In this document: piece after piece, positions 4,031 to 11,299 of the stretch
Layout of the letters: each line of letters begins with the position of its first letter
Numbering within the stretch: the first letter of the stretch is position 1
DNA from: an uncultured Bacteroidaceae bacterium
GTDB taxonomy: Bacteria > Bacteroidota > Bacteroidia > Bacteroidales > Bacteroidaceae
DNA length: 57,309 nt
Assembly: GCA_905235565.1 (NCBI GenBank)
Contig: CAJOLR010000030.1
Coordinates: forward strand, 1-57,309
Direction: 5' to 3'
The notes under the pieces: model-generated
Seen by the model: the letters and a program-made list of their open reading frames with translations, nothing else
Databases searched by the model: none
Told to the model about the DNA's origin: nothing
Translations under genes and position numbers: made by a program

Positions 4031-5089
4031 CTATTGCAGAATGTAGTCAGCAATCCACTGGCCGACCTCGCGGGTGCCGTAAGTAGCGCCACCGGAAACC
4101 TGGATCTCCGGAGTGCGGACATTAGCATCGAGTGAGGCCTGGACGGCGCGGCGGATAATGGCGCCCTCTTCATTAAGGCCGAAGTACTCGAACATCATGG
4201 CGGCGCTCAGTATCTGGGCAATAGGATTGGCAATGTTCAGGCCCTTGCCCTGCGGCCAGGAGCCGTGAACGGGCTCAAAGACCGGAGTATGCTCACCTGT
4301 TGATGCGCTGGGCAGCAGACCCATGGAGCCGGTAATGCACGATGCCTCATCGGTCAGGATATCGCCGAATGTATTCTCGGTAACAATCACGTCAAAGAAC
4401 CGCGGCTCCTGGATCATACGCATGGAGGCGTTATCCACGAACATGAAATCGGTCGTAACCTCGGGGTACTCTTTCATCACCTCCATGGCAACGTTGCGCC
4501 ACAGACGTGAGCTGGCCAGTACATTGGCCTTATCGACCACGGTCAGGTGCTTGCGGCGTGCCAAGGCATACTTGTAGCCAACGCGAAGAATGCGCTCCAC
4601 CTCGGCGCGGCTGTACAGATTCGTATCGTATGCCTCATCGGCACCCTCTTTCTTGGGGCCGAAATACATGCCGCCGGTAAGTTCACGGATGCATATGAAA
4701 TCGGCACCACGGACAATCTCATCCTTAAGCGGTGACTTGTGCACCAGGCAGTCAAAAGTCTCTATGGGGCGGATATTGGCGTACAGTCCCAGTTTCTTGC
4801 GCATGGCCAGCAGACCCTGCTCGGGACGTACTTTCGATGTGGGGTCATTGTCATACTTGGGGTCACCCACTGCCGCAAACAGCACTGCATCACACTCCAT
4901 GCAGGTGCGGAATGTCTCCTCAGGAAACGGGTCCCCCACCTTGTCTATGGCATAGGCACCGCAAATGGCCTCACGGTACTCTACCTCATGTCCGAACTTG
5001 CGGGCCACGGCGTTTACAACCGCCACACCCTGCTCCATTATCTCGGGGCCGATACCATCGCCGGCCAATACTGCTATCTTTAGTTTCAT
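4031..5089 (-). CDS. leuB: 3-isopropylmalate dehydrogenase
   Basis: The 352-residue enzyme oxidises and decarboxylates 3-isopropylmalate to 2-oxoisocaproate with NAD+ in leucine synthesis; it can also use 3-methylmalate in the citramalate route to isoleucine. Family marks are the N-terminal [13 protein letters not shown], the substrate-binding [11 protein letters not shown], the [14 protein letters not shown] segment, VDNASMRMI and [10 protein letters not shown]. Length is normal for the family. The start overlaps the stop of the upstream leuD::cimA gene by four bases (ATGA), so translation is probably coupled. It is the last gene of the leu operon and faces the XRE gene across an inverted repeat. 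Confidence 0.96.
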
Positions 5090-7230
5090 ATCATTGTCTC
5101 TATCTTGTTCATCATCTTGACGGTTGCCTTGATTGCGGCCTCGGTCTGGTCGGCATCCAGGCCGCGGGTCTTGAATTCGGTGCCTTTAAAGTTCCATGTG
5201 ATAATGGTCTGCACAAAGGCATCGGTACGGCCGCCGGGCGGTATTGACACGGTATAGTTGCTCAAGACCGGGAACGGTTTGTCCAAGCCGGCATATATTT
5301 TGCGCAAGGCACGCACAAAGGCATCGTACTGACCGTCACCGGTGGCGGCCTCCTGATAGGGCTGTCCGTCAATCTCAATCTTTACGGTTGCCTGCGGGCG
5401 CAAGCCCTGGGTAAGGCTGAGCGAATAGTTCAGCACACGTATGCGCTGCTCCTCCTGTTCGTGGTGCAGCACATCATGCACAATGTAAGGCAGGTCATCC
5501 TGTGTTACCTGCTCCTTCTTTACACCCAGCTCGATTATGCGGTCGGTAACCTTGCGCATGGACTCCTCGTCAAGTTCAATGCCCATGGCCATAAGGTTCA
5601 TCTGGATATTGGCCTTGCCGCTGTTCTTGCCCAGGGCATACTCCCTTACACGGCCAAAGCGCTCCGGCAGCAGTGCATTGAAATAGAGGTTGTCCTTACG
5701 GTCGCCGTCGGCATGCACGCCGGCGCACTGCGTAAACACAAACTCACCCACCACAGGCATGTTGTGCGGGATATGTATGCCGCTATCCAGCTCCACCTTA
5801 CGGCTAACCTTGAACAGACAGTTCTCATTCAGCCCCGTCTCCACGTCCATCTGGTCCTTGAGCATAGCCAGCACGCTGCCTAACGGAGCGTTACCGGCCC
5901 TCTCGCCCAGACCGTTCACAGTCACGTGGACTCCCTTTACGCCGGCCTTCACAGCCGCATAGACATTGGCTACGGCCAGGTCATAGTCATTGTGTGCGTG
6001 AAAATCAAAATGTATCATGGGATAGCGCACTACCATACGGCGGCAGTACTCCAGCGTGGTATCGGGATTGAGAATACCCAGCGTATCGGGCAGCATCACA
6101 CGCTTAACGGGCATTGCAGCAAGCGCATCCATCAGGTCAAACACGTATTTGGGCGAGCGTTTCATGCCGTTGCTCCAGTCCTCAAGATAGACGTTCACCT
6201 CCATGCCGCGGCTCACTGCGTATTCCACTGTGCTACGTATATCCCGGATATGTTCATCGGCAGTCTTGCCCAACTGCGCAGTAACATGCTTGAGGCTTCC
6301 CTTGCAGAGCAGGTTCATAACGCGGCATCCGGCCTCAAGAATCCAATCCGCCGAGCGGTTCTGATCCACAAATCCCAGCACCTCAACGCGGCTCAGCATA
6401 CCGTTGCGATGCGCCCAGTCGGCAATTCCCCGCACGCAATCCTGCTCGCGGTCCGATACCATGGCCGATGCTATCTCCACACGGTCCACGTTAAGGTCCG
6501 ACAGCAAAGACTGCACAATACTCAACTTCTCCTGATTAGAGAAACTCACGCCCGATGTCTGCTCGCCGTCACGCAGCGTTGTGTCCATAATCTCTATGTA
6601 ACGGCCGCGGGAGGCACGGCTCTCGTAAGCCTCAATATCGGCCTTGCGGCTGAGCAGGTAATCAATATCGTCATAGCCGTTCAAGAGGCAGTGCTTCTTG
6701 TAGGCGTCAATCTCAAACTTCTCGCTGTGTCCCGTAGCCAGATTGGTTACGGCCTGACCATCCAGATCCACACTCACAACGGTACCCGCATCCTTCCTGA
6801 TGCTTGAGAGCAACTCATCACGAAACTTTGTGCTCACGGTAACCGGCAGTACAAAGCAGTTCAGGAGGTTGCCACGGTGTATATCGGCAAAACGGTCCGA
6901 TATCACCACCCTTATGCCGTAACCGGCAATTGCCCAAGCGGCATGCTCGCGGCTGGAGCCCGAGCCCCAGTTGGTGCCGGCCACCACTATCTCGTGGCAG
7001 CCTTTATGTGGGCGCTCGCTGTACTCGGGGCGGTTAAGCGCAAAATCCTTCACAGGCATGCCATCAGCTCCAAACCTGAGGTCATGCATGAAAGCATCGC
7101 CAAAATAACTCAGGTCACGGGTGGTGGCTGCCATATATCGGGCCGGTATTATCAGGTCCGTGTTACAGTTGTCTATATTTATGGGAATGCAGGTTGATTC
7201 CACTATGCTCATTTTCCTTTCCATAGTCAT
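5086..7230 (-). CDS. LeuD-CimA fusion: isopropylmalate isomerase small subunit joined to citramalate synthase
   Basis: The 714-residue protein is a fusion. Residues about 1-203 are Leu[37 protein letters not shown] and the normal LeuD end [10 protein letters not shown]. Residues about 210-714 are an alpha-isopropylmalate/citramalate synthase of the Leptospira CimA type: [40 protein letters not shown], the metal-binding HAHND and the [13 protein letters not shown] signature, followed by a C-terminal allosteric domain ending near PPGGRTDA. CimA condenses pyruvate and acetyl-CoA to citramalate, and LeuCD then isomerises it. There are only about seven residues of linker and no stop between the two. 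It overlaps leuC and leuB by four bases each. Assignment as CimA rather than a second IPM synthase is from remembered similarity and needs a check of the pyruvate-pocket residues. Confidence 0.9.
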
Positions 7231-8621
7231 AGCATTTTTCGGGGGTCAGTTATTACACCTGTCACGGCACTGGCGGCCACAGTGAGCGGACTGGCCAGAA
7301 CGGTTCTGGAGCCGGGTCCCTGTCGGCCCACAAAGTTGCGGTTTGAAGTGGATATGCACAACTTCCCTGCCGGAACCTTATCGGGGTTCATGGCCAGGCA
7401 GGCCGAGCATGACGGCAGGCGCAACTCAAAACCGGCCTCCTCCAGTATCTTGTCTATACCCTCCTCTATTATCTGACGGCGCACTGCCCATGATCCGGGC
7501 ACCAGCCATGCGGTTACGCCCGGAGCCTTATGCTGTCCGCGCACCACACTTGCAAAAGCTCGGAAATCCTCTATGCGGCCGTTGGTGCAGGCACCCAGGA
7601 AACACCAGTCAATGGGCGTTCCCTCCAGTTTCTGCCCGGGCTTGAACTGCATGTAGTCCAACTGAACCTTCAGCTGGTCACGCTCGGCATCAGACAATCC
7701 TTCATATACGGGAACAGTTCCGTCAACCGCAATACCTGCACCGGGATTGGTTCCGTAGGTAATGCGCGGCGCGATGTCATCGGCATAGAATGTTACCTCG
7801 CGGTCAAAACGGGCGTCGTCATCAGTGTGCAGATTTCGCCAGACAGCTACCGCACGGTCCCAATCGGCACCCTTGGGCGCATACTCGCGCCCGCGCAGCC
7901 AGCTGAACGCGGTCTCATCGGGAGCAATCAGACCGGCACGGCTGCCCATCTCTATGGACAGGTTGGACAGCGTGAGCCTGCCCTCCATGCTCATATCGCG
8001 GACAACCTGACCGGAATACTCTACAGCATACCCGGTAGCGCCCGATGTGGTCATCTGCGACATGATATACAATGCCACATCCTTGGCGGTAACACCCTTG
8101 CCCAGCTTACCTTCAATATTTATGCGCATGGTCCCCGGCTTGAACTGAAGTATGCACTCTGATGCCAGTATCTGCGCCACCTGTGATGTGCCTATACCCA
8201 TTGCCACAGCACCCAGAGCACCGTGTGTTGAGGTGTGCGAGTCGCCGCACATGATGGTCATTCCGGGCAGCGACAGGCCTTTCTCCGGGCCCACCACATG
8301 GATTATTCCGTTATCGGGAGTACCCATACCGAAGCATTTTATCCCAAACTCGCGGCAGTTACGCTCCAGCGTCTCAACCTGCTTGCGCCCCACAGGGTCT
8401 TCTATGCTGTCCTGACAGTTTGACGGCGTATTGTGGTCAGGCATAGCAAACACCTTATCGGGGCGCAGCACGCCGCAGCCCTTGTCGCGGATAGCATCAA
8501 ACGCCTGCGGGGTGGTAACCTCGTGGCAGTACAAACGGTCTATATAAAGTACGTCAGGTCCGTCGGGGACTGACTGCACCACATGGGCGCTCCATATCTT
8601 GTCAAACAGCGTCTTTCCCAT
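7227..8621 (-). CDS. leuC: 3-isopropylmalate dehydratase large subunit
   Basis: The 464-residue aconitase-family protein isomerises 2- to 3-isopropylmalate together with LeuD and carries a [4Fe-4S] cluster. It shows MPDHNTPS, the [13 protein letters not shown] motif, the cluster cysteines in LGACTNGR and [12 protein letters not shown], and the [15 protein letters not shown] end. ATG 8619-8621 is chosen over a GTG one codon upstream. The start lies inside the end of leuA (20-base overlap) and the stop overlaps the next gene by four bases. Its neighbours, with CimA fused to the small subunit, imply that the same isomerase also handles citramalate. Confidence 0.96.
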
Positions 8622-10131
8622 CACTCTCCGGTTTGAATTTGTTTATACAGTCTATATATGCCTCCACACTGGCGGTTACTATATCGGTGTCCGACCCGAA
8701 TCCGTAGTACAGATGTCCGTCATTCTCCACCTGCATGTGTACCTTACACATATCGTCCGATCCCTTGGACAGCGCCTGGATTGTCATCTCCTTAAGCGTC
8801 ATGGTGCGGCGGATTATCTGCTTGAGCGCCTTGATGGATGCATCCAGCGGTCCGTTTCCGGTTGACTGGGCACTGAATGAACGGCCATCAACGTTCAGAC
8901 GTATGGTGGCATCGGGTACCACACCTTTTCCGGTAGTCACCTCCAGCGCCTCCAGTTTTACATGACGCTTGGCGGCCACATCGGCCCCAGCCAACATCAG
9001 TATATCATCATCGGTAAGCTCCTTCTTCTTGTCGGCCAGTTTCAGGAATGCCTCATATAAGCGGTTCATTGCCACTGCATCAACCTTTACACCCAGAGCT
9101 GTGAGACGGTGTTTGAGTGCGGCGCGTCCCGAGCGGGCGGTCAGTACTATGTTGGCCTCCTCCAGGCCTATATCCTTGGGGTTGATGATCTCATACGTAC
9201 TGGTGTTTTTGAGCACTCCGTCCTGGTGTATGCCGCTGGAGTGCGCGAATGCGTTGCGGCCCACTATTGCCTTGTTGAACTGCACCGGCATACTCATGAG
9301 CGATGATACCAGACGGCTGGCGGCTGTTATGCGCCGGGTGTTGATGCCGCACTCCAGCGGTATATCATGGTGGCACTTGAGTATCATGGCAATCTCCTCG
9401 AGCGATGTATTGCCGGCCCTCTCGCCCACTCCGTTTATGGTAACTTCCACCTGACGGGCTCCGTTCAGGATTCCGCTCATGGTATTGGCGGTGGCCATCC
9501 CAAGGTCATTGTGGCAGTGCGTGGATAGTATCGCCTTACCGTTGGCAAGTCCGTCCACATGCTCCATCAGGTATTTTATCTTGGCGCCGAACTCATCGGG
9601 AAGACAGTAGCCCGTGGTATCAGGTATGTTTATTATGGTGGCGCCGGCCTTGATTGCTGCCTCGGCCACGCGTGCCAGATACTCGTTATCAGTACGGCCG
9701 GCATCCTCGGCGTAGAACTCCACTTCATCCACCTTCTTTGACACAGCGTACTTGACAGCGGCAACCGCACGCTCCAGGATCTCCTCTCTGGTGCTGTTGA
9801 ACTTATACCTAATGTGCTCGTCACTAGTGCCTATTCCTGTATGGATCCGCTTCAGCCTGGCGTAACGCAGGGCATCGGCGGCTGCGTCTATATCGGCCTC
9901 AACGGCACGGGTCAGGGCGCAGATAATAGGGTTACTCACCGCTTTTGATATTTCCACCACCGAGTTGAAATCGCCCGGGCTGCTTACCGGAAATCCGGCC
10001 TCAATCACATCCACTCCCAGCTGCTCCAGCTGGCGTGCCACCTCAATCTTCTCGATGGTGTTGAGCTGGCAGCCCGGAACCTGTTCGCCGTCCCGGAGTG
10101 TGGTGTCAAAAAAAATGATCCTGTCTGACAT
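8602..10131 (-). CDS. leuA: 2-isopropylmalate synthase
   Basis: The 509-residue protein has the DRE-TIM barrel signature [16 protein letters not shown] at the start, [14 protein letters not shown] with the metal-binding histidines, the [14 protein letters not shown] motif and the SGIHQDG segment. A C-terminal LeuA regulatory domain follows, consistent with leucine feedback. It condenses 2-oxoisovalerate with acetyl-CoA, the first committed leucine step. ATG 10129-10131 is preferred; an upstream TTG in frame would add seven non-conserved residues. It is the first gene of the operon and sits 30 bases behind an attenuator terminator. Confidence 0.96.
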
Positions 10132-10160: not shown

Positions 10161-10195
10161 AAAAAAGCCTCTCTCACTTCTGTGAGAAAGGCTTT
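10161..10195 (-). terminator. Attenuator terminator in front of leuA
   Basis: On the minus strand a 13-bp stem (arms at 10182-10194 and 10165-10177, one G-T pair, 4-base loop) is followed by six T. It lies between the leader peptide and leuA. Its first arm contains CTTTCTCAC, which can instead pair with GTGAGAAAG at 10243-10251 in the end of the leader peptide gene. This gives two mutually exclusive structures. Confidence 0.9.
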
Positions 10196-10237
10196 ATCGC
10201 GTATTGTTAGGTTATTGTCTCAAATCATATATATGCG

Positions 10238-10306
10238 TCAGGCTTTCTCACACCGGTTGTCCGGAATGATAATAATTGATAGAATAATCAAGCCCTGCAG
10301 TCGCAT
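10238..10306 (-). CDS. leu/ile operon leader peptide (22 aa)
   Basis: A short ORF from ATG 10304-10306 to TGA 10238-10240 encodes a peptide beginning MRLQGLIILSIIIIPDN and ending RCEKA. It holds three Leu codons (CTG, TTG, CTA) and six Ile codons, including four Ile in a row. It starts about 27 bases after the predicted transcription start and is followed by a terminator 43 bases later. Its last codons contain the strand that competes with the terminator. A ribosome stalled for lack of charged Leu- or Ile-tRNA would leave this strand free and prevent termination, so leuACDB would be expressed. The mix of Leu and Ile codons fits an operon that also holds CimA. Too short for normal ORF calling. 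Confidence 0.85.
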   Translation of the reverse strand: MRLQGLIILSIIIIPDNRCEKA

Positions 10307-10339
10307 ATAATCTCTGTTTATTCTTACGTTTTGTGCGTG

Positions 10340-10370
10340 CAAAGTTATACACTCCTATCAAAATGACAAA
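10340..10370 (-). promoter_or_regulatory. Promoter of the leu operon
   Basis: On the minus strand TTTG (10367-10370) is followed after 19 bases by TAACTTTG (10340-10347), a perfect match to the Bacteroidetes -33/-7 arrangement. Transcription would start near 10333, leaving a leader of about 200 bases with the leader peptide and attenuator. Confidence 0.85.
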
Positions 10371-10427
10371 ACAATCAGCTCTTTTTTTCTAGTAACCGCA
10401 AAACTTAGGTGGGTAAGCAAAAATCGC

Positions 10428-10435
10428 TACCTTTG
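10428..10435 (+). promoter_or_regulatory. Promoter -7 box of the HPr-kinase-like gene
   Basis: TACCTTTG matches TAnnTTTG and ends nine bases before the ATG at 10445. The transcript would therefore have almost no leader, and an in-frame GTG at 10409 lies upstream of the promoter and can be discarded as start. Confidence 0.6.
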
Positions 10436-10444
10436 TTATTTGGA

Positions 10445-11299
10445 ATGAATAAGGTGTATTACATAGTTGCGGAGCATTTGTTTTGCGTAGAGGCCCAAGA
10501 GAGTGTTTTGGGACTTCTTGGCAACTATGAGCCGTTCAGGACTGAGCAGAGCAAAGATGCACTGTTCAGCCTCACAGTAACTGACGGAGGGCCGATACGC
10601 TACGTTGAGGAGCTGAACCAGGATGAGGAGGGACAGGATATTGTTTGCGGACATACCGGACTGGGAGAGCCGGTGTTTGAGTTCCGGTTTGGCGGTAAGA
10701 CTGCGGGATGGCTGGTCTGCTCGGCCGGATACCGTGAGGGTACGCTTTACCTTAGCGGATTCCAGACTAAGGCGGCTGTTGACAATGCGCTGATGATACA
10801 GTTTGCTATGGCATCGGCCACACTTGATACGGCGTTGTTTCATGCGGCGGCGGTCAGTCTGGACGGCAGGGGGTATATGTTCCTAGGCAAGAGCGGCACC
10901 GGCAAGAGTACACATGCACGGCTGTGGCTCCAGAACATACAGGGTGCTGAACTAATGAATGATGATAATCCGGCAGTTCGCGTTTTTAAAGATGGCACCG
11001 CAGTGGTCTATGGCACACCATGGAGCGGCAAGACGCCTTGCTACCGCAACATTTGCGCTCCTATTGGCGGCATTGTACTGCTCAGTCAGGCTCCATACAA
11101 CCGCATAACAAGGCTTACAGGTATAGGCGCATACGCCGCAGTGGTGCCCAGCATATCTGGCAAGCGGTGGGACAGCCGCATTGCCGACGGCCTGCATGAG
11201 ACTGAGAACGCTCTGGCCAGCAATGTGCCCGTATGGCACTTGGACTGCCTGCCCGATGCTGATGCTGCCCACCTGTGTAAAGATACTATTGCCCTATGA
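10445..11299 (+). CDS. HPr kinase-like / PEP-carboxykinase-fold ATP-binding protein
   Basis: The 284-residue protein has a P-loop FLGKSGTGKSTHARLW at about 147-162, NDDNP at 172-176 and GTPWSGKT at 190-197, the layout of HPr serine kinase/PEPCK-fold proteins. The N-terminal 130 residues are beta-rich and not recognised. Related proteins occur next to lasso-peptide and other RiPP genes, where some phosphorylate a precursor peptide. Here the gene overlaps by four bases an S26 peptidase gene, followed by a PqqD-like gene and an ABC transporter, so a role in peptide modification is inferred. The substrate is unknown. The start is set by the promoter position and by MNKVYYI fitting the fold. Confidence 0.75.
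   Translation: MNKVYYIVAEHLFCVEAQESVLGLLGNYEPFRTEQSKDALFSLTVTDGGPIRYVEELNQDEEGQDIVCGHTGLGEPVFEFRFGGKTAGWLVCSAGYREGTLYLSGFQTKAAVDNALMIQFAMASATLDTALFHAAAVSLDGRGYMFLGKSGTGKSTHARLWLQNIQGAELMNDDNPAVRVFKDGTAVVYGTPWSGKTPCYRNICAPIGGIVLLSQAPYNRITRLTGIGAYAAVVPSISGKRWDSRIADGLHETENALASNVPVWHLDCLPDADAAHLCKDTIAL

Follow-up and report, generated by a model that had tools for sequence, protein, structure and literature searches.

We found that the leuA-leuC-leuD/cimA-leuB operon of an uncultured Bacteroidaceae bacterium is very probably controlled by a ribosome-mediated transcription attenuator working as an OR gate for leucine and isoleucine, a reading to which we assign a probability of about 0.88. That the attenuator is real and conserved, and that it senses leucine and isoleucine, is very probable. 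Its parts, their conservation and the codon bias can be shown in the sequences of the window (the whole 57,309-nucleotide stretch of DNA that was analysed) and of its relatives, and conservation in relatives is the main evidence for the device.

Parts of the leader and the operon behind it

On the minus strand, the sequence reads as a putative promoter, TTTG-N19-TAACTTTG (10340..10370), with TTTG at 10370-10367, a spacer of 19 nt and TAACTTTG at 10347-10340; from its consensus we take it to be of the Bacteroidetes -33/-7 type. Downstream lies a leader ORF of 22 codons, MRLQGLIILSIIIIPDNRCEKA followed by a stop codon (10238..10306, minus), with counterparts in 47 of 80 relatives. It holds three Leu codons (CTG, TTG and CTA) and six Ile codons, with Leu at codons 3, 6 and 9 and Ile at codons 7, 8 and 11-14. 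The end of the ORF carries strand 2, the predicted antiterminator arm TGTGAGAAAG (10243..10252, minus), which is complementary to 10190-10181: GTGAGAAAG at 10251-10243 matches CTTTCTCAC at 10190-10182, and a further U-A pair extends the strand to 10252-10243. Strand 3 (10181..10195, minus; core CCTTTCTCAC) is the first arm of the terminator and is common to the antiterminator. The intrinsic terminator, a 3:4 hairpin plus U-run (10161..10195, minus), was found both by folding and by a terminator scan, and its pairs change in relatives; the hairpin (10195-10164) has 14 pairs, six of them G-C, and the terminator ends about 30 nt upstream of leuA.

Additionally, the minimum free energy fold of the window and a consensus of nine sequences place a 1:2 hairpin (10248..10269, minus) that takes in the last Ile codons together with the beginning of strand 2 and is invariant within the nine-sequence consensus of the window's clade. 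The minimum free energy fold also contains an outer pairing of ATGCG (10306-10302) with CGCAT (10237-10233), spanning 10233..10306 (minus), which would shut off the leader start codon; it recurs in nine close relatives, where it is invariant and hence gives no covariation signal.

These findings reproduce base for base the leader parts that the preliminary description had placed at 10370-10161 on the minus strand, with correct coordinates. The leader with three Leu and six Ile codons and the 9-base strand at 10243-10251 complementary to the first terminator arm are exact in the sequence, and the terminator just ahead of leuA is as strong as claimed, with its 14 pairs and first rank within 20 kb. 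The terminator and the antiterminator had both been recognised, but the third alternative, the 1:2 hairpin at 10269-10248, had been overlooked.

We next give the window statistics. Folding of the leader RNA yielded -48.1 kcal/mol (z -5.9) and the 2:3 duplex -15.6 kcal/mol (z -4.4), values equalled by 0 of 200 shuffles in either case. The piece 10270-10178, cut ahead of the second terminator arm, adopted the 2:3 antiterminator (z -3.3, equalled by 1 of 200 shuffles). At the codon frequency of leuA, at least nine Ile/Leu among 21 leader codons would be expected with P 0.0024. The terminator ranks first among 17 terminator-like sites in 20 kb; since shuffled sequence also yields 17.2 such sites, its rank alone is noteworthy.

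The genes of the leuACDB operon named earlier were borne out, but their order is really leuA, leuC, a fusion of leuD with a citramalate-synthase-like part, and leuB. On the minus strand, leuA (2-isopropylmalate synthase, 8602..10131) matches NCBIfam TIGR00973, leuC (7227..8624) TIGR00170 and leuB (4031..5089) TIGR00169, while the in-frame fusion (5086..7230) matches TIGR00171 at 10-196, each over its cut-off. For the C-terminal part of the fusion, the best match is the Leptospira CimA model NF042433, with 626 bits against a cut-off of 950. Directly contiguous LeuD and citramalate-synthase-like matches were also seen in L004, L005, L007 and L009. Five proteins of the source genome (91% complete) match PF00291: two are a cysteine-synthase piece and a threonine-synthase-like protein by best NCBIfam match, both below cut-off, and three were named by eye as CysK, TrpB and threonine synthase. 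Given that no recognisable threonine deaminase is among these five proteins of the 91% complete genome, citramalate is likely its route to isoleucine. Ahead of ilvD in the same genome no leader was seen by eye, and a TAACTTTG box lies about 66 nt upstream of the ilvD ATG. A divergent ORF (10409-11299, plus) begins close to the leu promoter, so that both would share a short regulatory region.

From this arrangement we infer actual termination, the sensing of both amino acids and a role for the 1:2 hairpin as follows. Transcription would start just downstream of 10340, and a ribosome would translate the 22-codon leader behind RNA polymerase. With charged Leu-tRNA and Ile-tRNA plentiful, the ribosome would reach the stop codon and cover strand 2, and the terminator would form before leuA. 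A stall at any of the Leu codons (3, 6, 9) or Ile codons (7, 8, 11-14) would leave strand 2 free to pair with strand 3, and transcription would continue into the operon. The OR gate would suit an operon that helps to make both products, leucine through leuABCD and isoleucine through citramalate synthase. Until the ribosome arrives, strand 2 may be held by the 1:2 hairpin, which covers the last Ile codons.

Conservation and covariation among relatives

As relatives we took the best 80 leuA loci from a scan of GTDB species genomes, which are the nearest ones and not a sample. A mechanical upstream search for the terminator core and a leader yielded 39 relatives, and eight with the core or U-run outside the mechanical rule were added by eye; promoter box, leader and terminator stand in the same order in 47 of these 80 nearest relatives. 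Of the 41 sequences examined that contain the terminator core, 40 have a TAnnTTTG box 60-220 nt upstream of the core; the one lacking the box (L033) was not retained as an attenuator. Such a device is absent from 33 of the 80 relatives, two of which have less than 202 nt upstream; 18 of the 33 have instead a TAnnTTTG box starting 16-69 nt upstream of leuA, which points to a promoter without attenuation.

The terminator core CCTTTCTCAC is strikingly similar across relatives, which fits a strand having two partners. Strand 2 is GGAAGTGA in most relatives, where it can pair with the loop side of arm 3, CTCACTTCC; the nine sequences of the window's clade have GTGAGAAAG instead, which can pair with the stem side. 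The register of the antiterminator is shifted between clades with the layout kept.

As a control, the same mechanical leader search was run upstream of 385 other ORFs, including ones that are not operon heads, in the order-wide loci described below. Of the 385, 9 passed, compared with 50 of 80 leu/ilv operon heads, and a stricter rule left 1 of 385 versus 37 of 80. Among ORFs having any terminator plus a short ORF, 9 of 39 controls passed compared with 50 of 53 leu/ilv heads, the 53 being counted by hand.

We tested the pairings in the 39 relatives outside the window's clade against 500 shuffles, which ignore kinship. Changes on both sides occur in 7 of 12 terminator pairs, and on each of five measures the terminator scores above every one of the 500 shuffles. 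For the antiterminator, 93.2% of cells are paired versus 90.9% in shuffles, none of which reached as high a value. Its columns are nearly invariant, with two pairs showing two-sided change in two sequences each (one such change occurs in L045 and L080), and its pair types are not in excess over the shuffles. A version of the antiterminator extended with AAGG received weaker support than the core and was set aside. Covariation, which the preliminary description had proposed to look for in both structures, is thus present in the terminator, whereas the antiterminator is paired in relatives but hardly varies. The attenuation logic it had outlined agrees with the recurrence of the same parts in relatives, and the exclusive pairings, the codon bias and the ribosome geometry all fit. 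Neither finding that would have told against it, leader codons that are not conserved or a competing pairing missing from relatives, was made.

RNAalifold, without prior input, proposed a third helix, between the last Ile-Arg-Leu codons and the start of strand 2. This 1:2 helix has 86.3% of cells paired in the 39 relatives. Its covariation score of 0.337 and its 20 two-sided cells lie above all 500 shuffles and all slid versions, with kinship uncontrolled, and its count of pairs with two-sided change does not lie above all of them. The window has a hairpin at the same place (10269-10248), which would complete the classical set of 1:2, 2:3 and 3:4. In many leaders the Ile run is followed by CGA, a rare Arg codon (alignment A1, columns 67-69); it sits in the 1:2 helix, where its role may be pairing, slow decoding, or both.

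Leader codons and the amino acids probably sensed

Ile and Leu account for 407 of the 1157 codons in 48 leaders (9 of 21 in the window) versus 15.4% in leuA genes, so that an alignment bears out the predicted conservation of Leu/Ile codons. Codon choice within these 48 leaders is equally distinct from that of leuA genes: CTA makes up 53 of 166 Leu codons (0.32 versus 0.02), ATT 189 of 241 Ile codons (0.78 versus 0.31) and CGA 48 of 99 Arg codons (versus 0.05).

To model the position of the ribosome, we left out of the fold, in each of the 48 leaders, everything as far as 12 nt beyond the first A-site base, folded the rest up to arm 3 and read out the expected pairs of arm 3 (strand 3) with RNA upstream of it. 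The mean was 12.2 pairs with the ribosome stalled at Ile/Leu codons versus 3.3 at the stop codon; the Ile/Leu stall paired the antiterminator more than the stop-codon ribosome did in 48 of 48 leaders, which are kin and not independent. The ribosome-free model gave 9.4 upstream pairs for strand 3, so equilibrium folding does not predict termination without translation, and that idea was dropped as unsupported; the same result tempers the covariation evidence for the 1:2 helix as a protector. Relative to the geometric limit at which the ribosome hides strand 2, 390 Ile/Leu codons lie before and 17 after, versus 351 and 399 for other codons, and antiterminator pairing drops just beyond the Ile/Leu run. 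In 47 of 48 leaders a distance of 0-1 codons separates the limit from the nearest Ile/Leu codon ahead of it, a proximity that is weak alone because the Ile/Leu density of 390/741 gives about three quarters by chance. Order-wide leaders from other families, picked by their Ile+Leu+Val share and with L242 and L258 dropped beforehand, have Ile/Leu/Val at 444 of the 849 codons ahead of the limit and at 34 of the 238 beyond it, and at the stop codon pairing fell below half of the plateau in 41 of 48. By computation only, stalling would leave strand 2 free and finishing the leader would hide it.

The preliminary description had tied dual Leu/Ile sensing to the citramalate synthase of the operon. In a first set of leu operons, at least three Ile codons occur in 55 of 57 operons with cimA versus 0 of 8 without, and cimA is absent from the fetched operons of leu leaders with 0-2 Ile codons. 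A kinship-blind Fisher test of this association (P about 1e-8) was set aside, since the eight cimA-less genomes form one clade and thus represent one event, and leu loci were therefore read more widely in the order. For the order-wide set, one leu locus each was taken from 80 genomes, out of the 93 in the order that matched the model; of these loci, 30 without a leader, 11 with ilv in the operon and 4 more with cimA unknown were left out of the test and 35 kept. In the joined sets, a mechanical count gave at least three Ile codons in 80 of 83 leaders with cimA versus 4 of 15 without; the duplicates L029/L211 and L063/L215 are counted twice in these numbers, which without them become 53 of 55 (first set) and 78 of 81 (joined). 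Reading of the four cimA-less exceptions showed that L242 was a wrong frame chosen mechanically (Ile is missing from MNTTLLSLSLTSGLTLSK, the ORF that follows the promoter box) and L258 a gene-end terminator, while L291 and L298 are real, with 4-5 Ile codons in the leaders of cimA-less operons. Among the roughly six lineages that lack cimA and have a real leader, four show 0-2 Ile codons by our reading. No more than four changes are forced by firm branches; the four independent pairs on these branches split into 2.2 as expected, 0 against and 1.8 undecided, which is not significant. The link with citramalate synthase therefore gains from the cimA-Ile association and from the missing threonine deaminase, but is weakened by two counterexample lineages and few independent events.

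These same limits feed an alternative on which the attenuator is the same and senses leucine only, the Ile codons being incidental and retained on account of RNA pairing or a high AT content. E. coli leuL is not known to sense any amino acid but leucine; L291 and L298 keep their Ile codons without cimA, and the association comes down to about six lineages. We nevertheless consider leucine-only sensing unlikely, given that Ile is the commonest leader codon and its run lies nearest the geometric limit, that four cimA-less lineages have leaders with 0-2 Ile codons, and that the leader Ile codons are biased to ATT. The window leader, unlike leuL, has more Ile than Leu codons.

A covariance model was built from 43 leaders and gave a match at E up to 1e-4 in 94 of the 201 genomes of the family. 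Of 40 lower-scoring matches that were read, 36 are directly followed by a leu or ilv gene, and the matches include attenuators ahead of ilvD (Ile, Leu and Val codons), ilvB and trpB. The 24 ilvD leaders have 3-6 Val codons each, with VVV in 21, compared with a mean of 1.0 Val and no VVV in 101 leu leaders. Outside Bacteroidaceae, five of nine ilvD-headed leaders have at least three Val codons and two have none. Val codons are thus carried by ilvD leaders in Bacteroidaceae, and less regularly elsewhere. Weak phylum-wide matches of covariance model R1 (85 of 296 genomes, E up to 0.01) were not counted, because most score below 45 bits and many of the 29 loci read resemble plain terminators.

Other roles for the leader, known systems and a possible wider family

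Could the leader transcript be mainly a small trans-acting RNA or peptide, with leuA transcribed from its own promoter? A promoter, a short ORF and a strong terminator would yield a discrete RNA of about 170 nt, and trans roles have been published for the Sinorhizobium trp leader peptide (PMC7298713). A TAnnTTTG box also lies between the terminator and leuA (10157-10150, minus), and its use would let transcription bypass the attenuator. Yet no TTTG is found 18-22 nt upstream of this box in the window sequence, and the device precedes leuA, ilvD or ilvB in many lineages, with codons that tend to track the operon, which makes a principal role in trans very improbable.

No Rfam family reached its gathering score in the window, including the covariance models of Leu_leader (RF00512), Bacteroid-trp (RF01692) and the T-box (RF00230), and matches below threshold were at chance level; as a positive control, the trpB leaders L177 and L182 match RF01692. 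An RNA that binds a metabolite or a tRNA, such as a riboswitch or T-box, or else a leader bound by protein, would also be a structured leader ahead of a biosynthesis operon. Such a reading is hardly credible when no gathering-score match supports it, either in the window or in the leaders searched at 17 further loci (leu, ilv, thr, Ile and Met/Cys), and when what is conserved is an ORF with alternating pairings.

The attenuator reading finds its closest parallel in E. coli leuL (RF00512), which shares the leader peptide, the rare Leu codon CTA, the leuA operon as target and the 1:2, 2:3 and 3:4 pairings, as predicted for the window, although the window has no match to the Rfam model. E. coli ilv leaders resemble the window leader in combining several branched-chain amino acids; they differ in that the window's leu leader has no Val codon, Val-bearing leaders preceding ilvD in relatives. 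The likeness to Bacteroid-trp (RF01692) drawn earlier holds for the layout, that is for leader peptide and terminator within the same phylum, but not for the Rfam model: the window differs in amino acids and terminator sequence, while the two trpB leaders caught by our leu model are RF01692 matches.

Among the matches listed in a literature search, no title or abstract names a leucine/isoleucine attenuator in Bacteroidota. As Vitreschak et al. (2004) reportedly mention Bacteroidetes/Chlorobi attenuators, we do not claim a wholly unreported attenuator. Its kind is already known, and the interest lies in its lineage, in a register shift specific to the clade and in leader codons that partly match the operon content; the attenuator would also be a test system for one leader sensing several amino acids.

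In Flavobacterium psychrophilum, the transcriptome gave clues for leader-peptide attenuation upstream of amino-acid operons (PMC9723704), and Bacteroides thetaiotaomicron has leader-peptide-like sORFs in long 5' UTRs (PMC7366714); the available portions of these two texts name no leucine or isoleucine attenuator. An Rfam-based survey listed two RNA regulogs for Bacteroidaceae and proposed that amino-acid leader attenuators may originate in gammaproteobacteria, with very few transfers (PMC3766115). From the conserved set of different build in Bacteroidales, ribosome-mediated attenuation would seem to be common in amino-acid control there as well.

We lean slightly towards a broader reading, in which Bacteroidota carry a wide attenuator family, mostly unmatched by Rfam, whose leader codons are rewritten as genes enter or leave the operon. 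The codon sets would be Leu for leuACDB, Leu and Ile with cimA, Ile, Leu and Val for ilvDBHC, and elsewhere Thr/Ile, Trp or Met/Cys, a scheme that we hold with the same slight preference. The odds of codon rewriting are lowered by the ilvD-headed leaders outside Bacteroidaceae, where five of nine have at least three Val codons and two none. If true, the codon set could predict the amino acids served by an operon, such as through the citramalate route to isoleucine, and leader codons would be a clue to citramalate-derived isoleucine from sequence only.

Several further loci were observed along the way. In L209 (G324), a cimA-ilvD-ilvB-ilvC-leuA cluster has cimA at its head with its own leader, MITSNLILVGIILLVLVE. 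Upstream of ilvD in one ilv-leu operon, L262 has two attenuator-like units in tandem, whose Ile/Leu/Val leaders are MRNLNNIILSIIIILVVVIP and MNTTLIIIVVVIILILIRT. Between them, L093 and L101 (both minus) carry a Thr/Ile leader, MTINNTIITTIITTGIKDGGR, ahead of an aspartokinase-like gene, as well as two Ile-rich leaders ahead of a branched-chain-aminotransferase-like gene, both genes being named by eye. In addition, Met/Cys-rich leaders plus a terminator precede O-acetylhomoserine-sulfhydrylase-like genes in L088, L111 and L112, which belong to other lineages of the phylum. From its sequence this looks like a methionine/cysteine attenuator, on which our literature search found no paper. The leaders lie near 1501-1612 in L088 (minus; downstream gene over the TIGR01326 cut-off), near 1501-1600 in L111 and near 1501-1606 in L112 (minus), the downstream genes of the latter two being named by eye. 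An MMxMCMMMCCxC-like core with zero mismatches occurs in 3 of 395 phylum genomes, namely these three.
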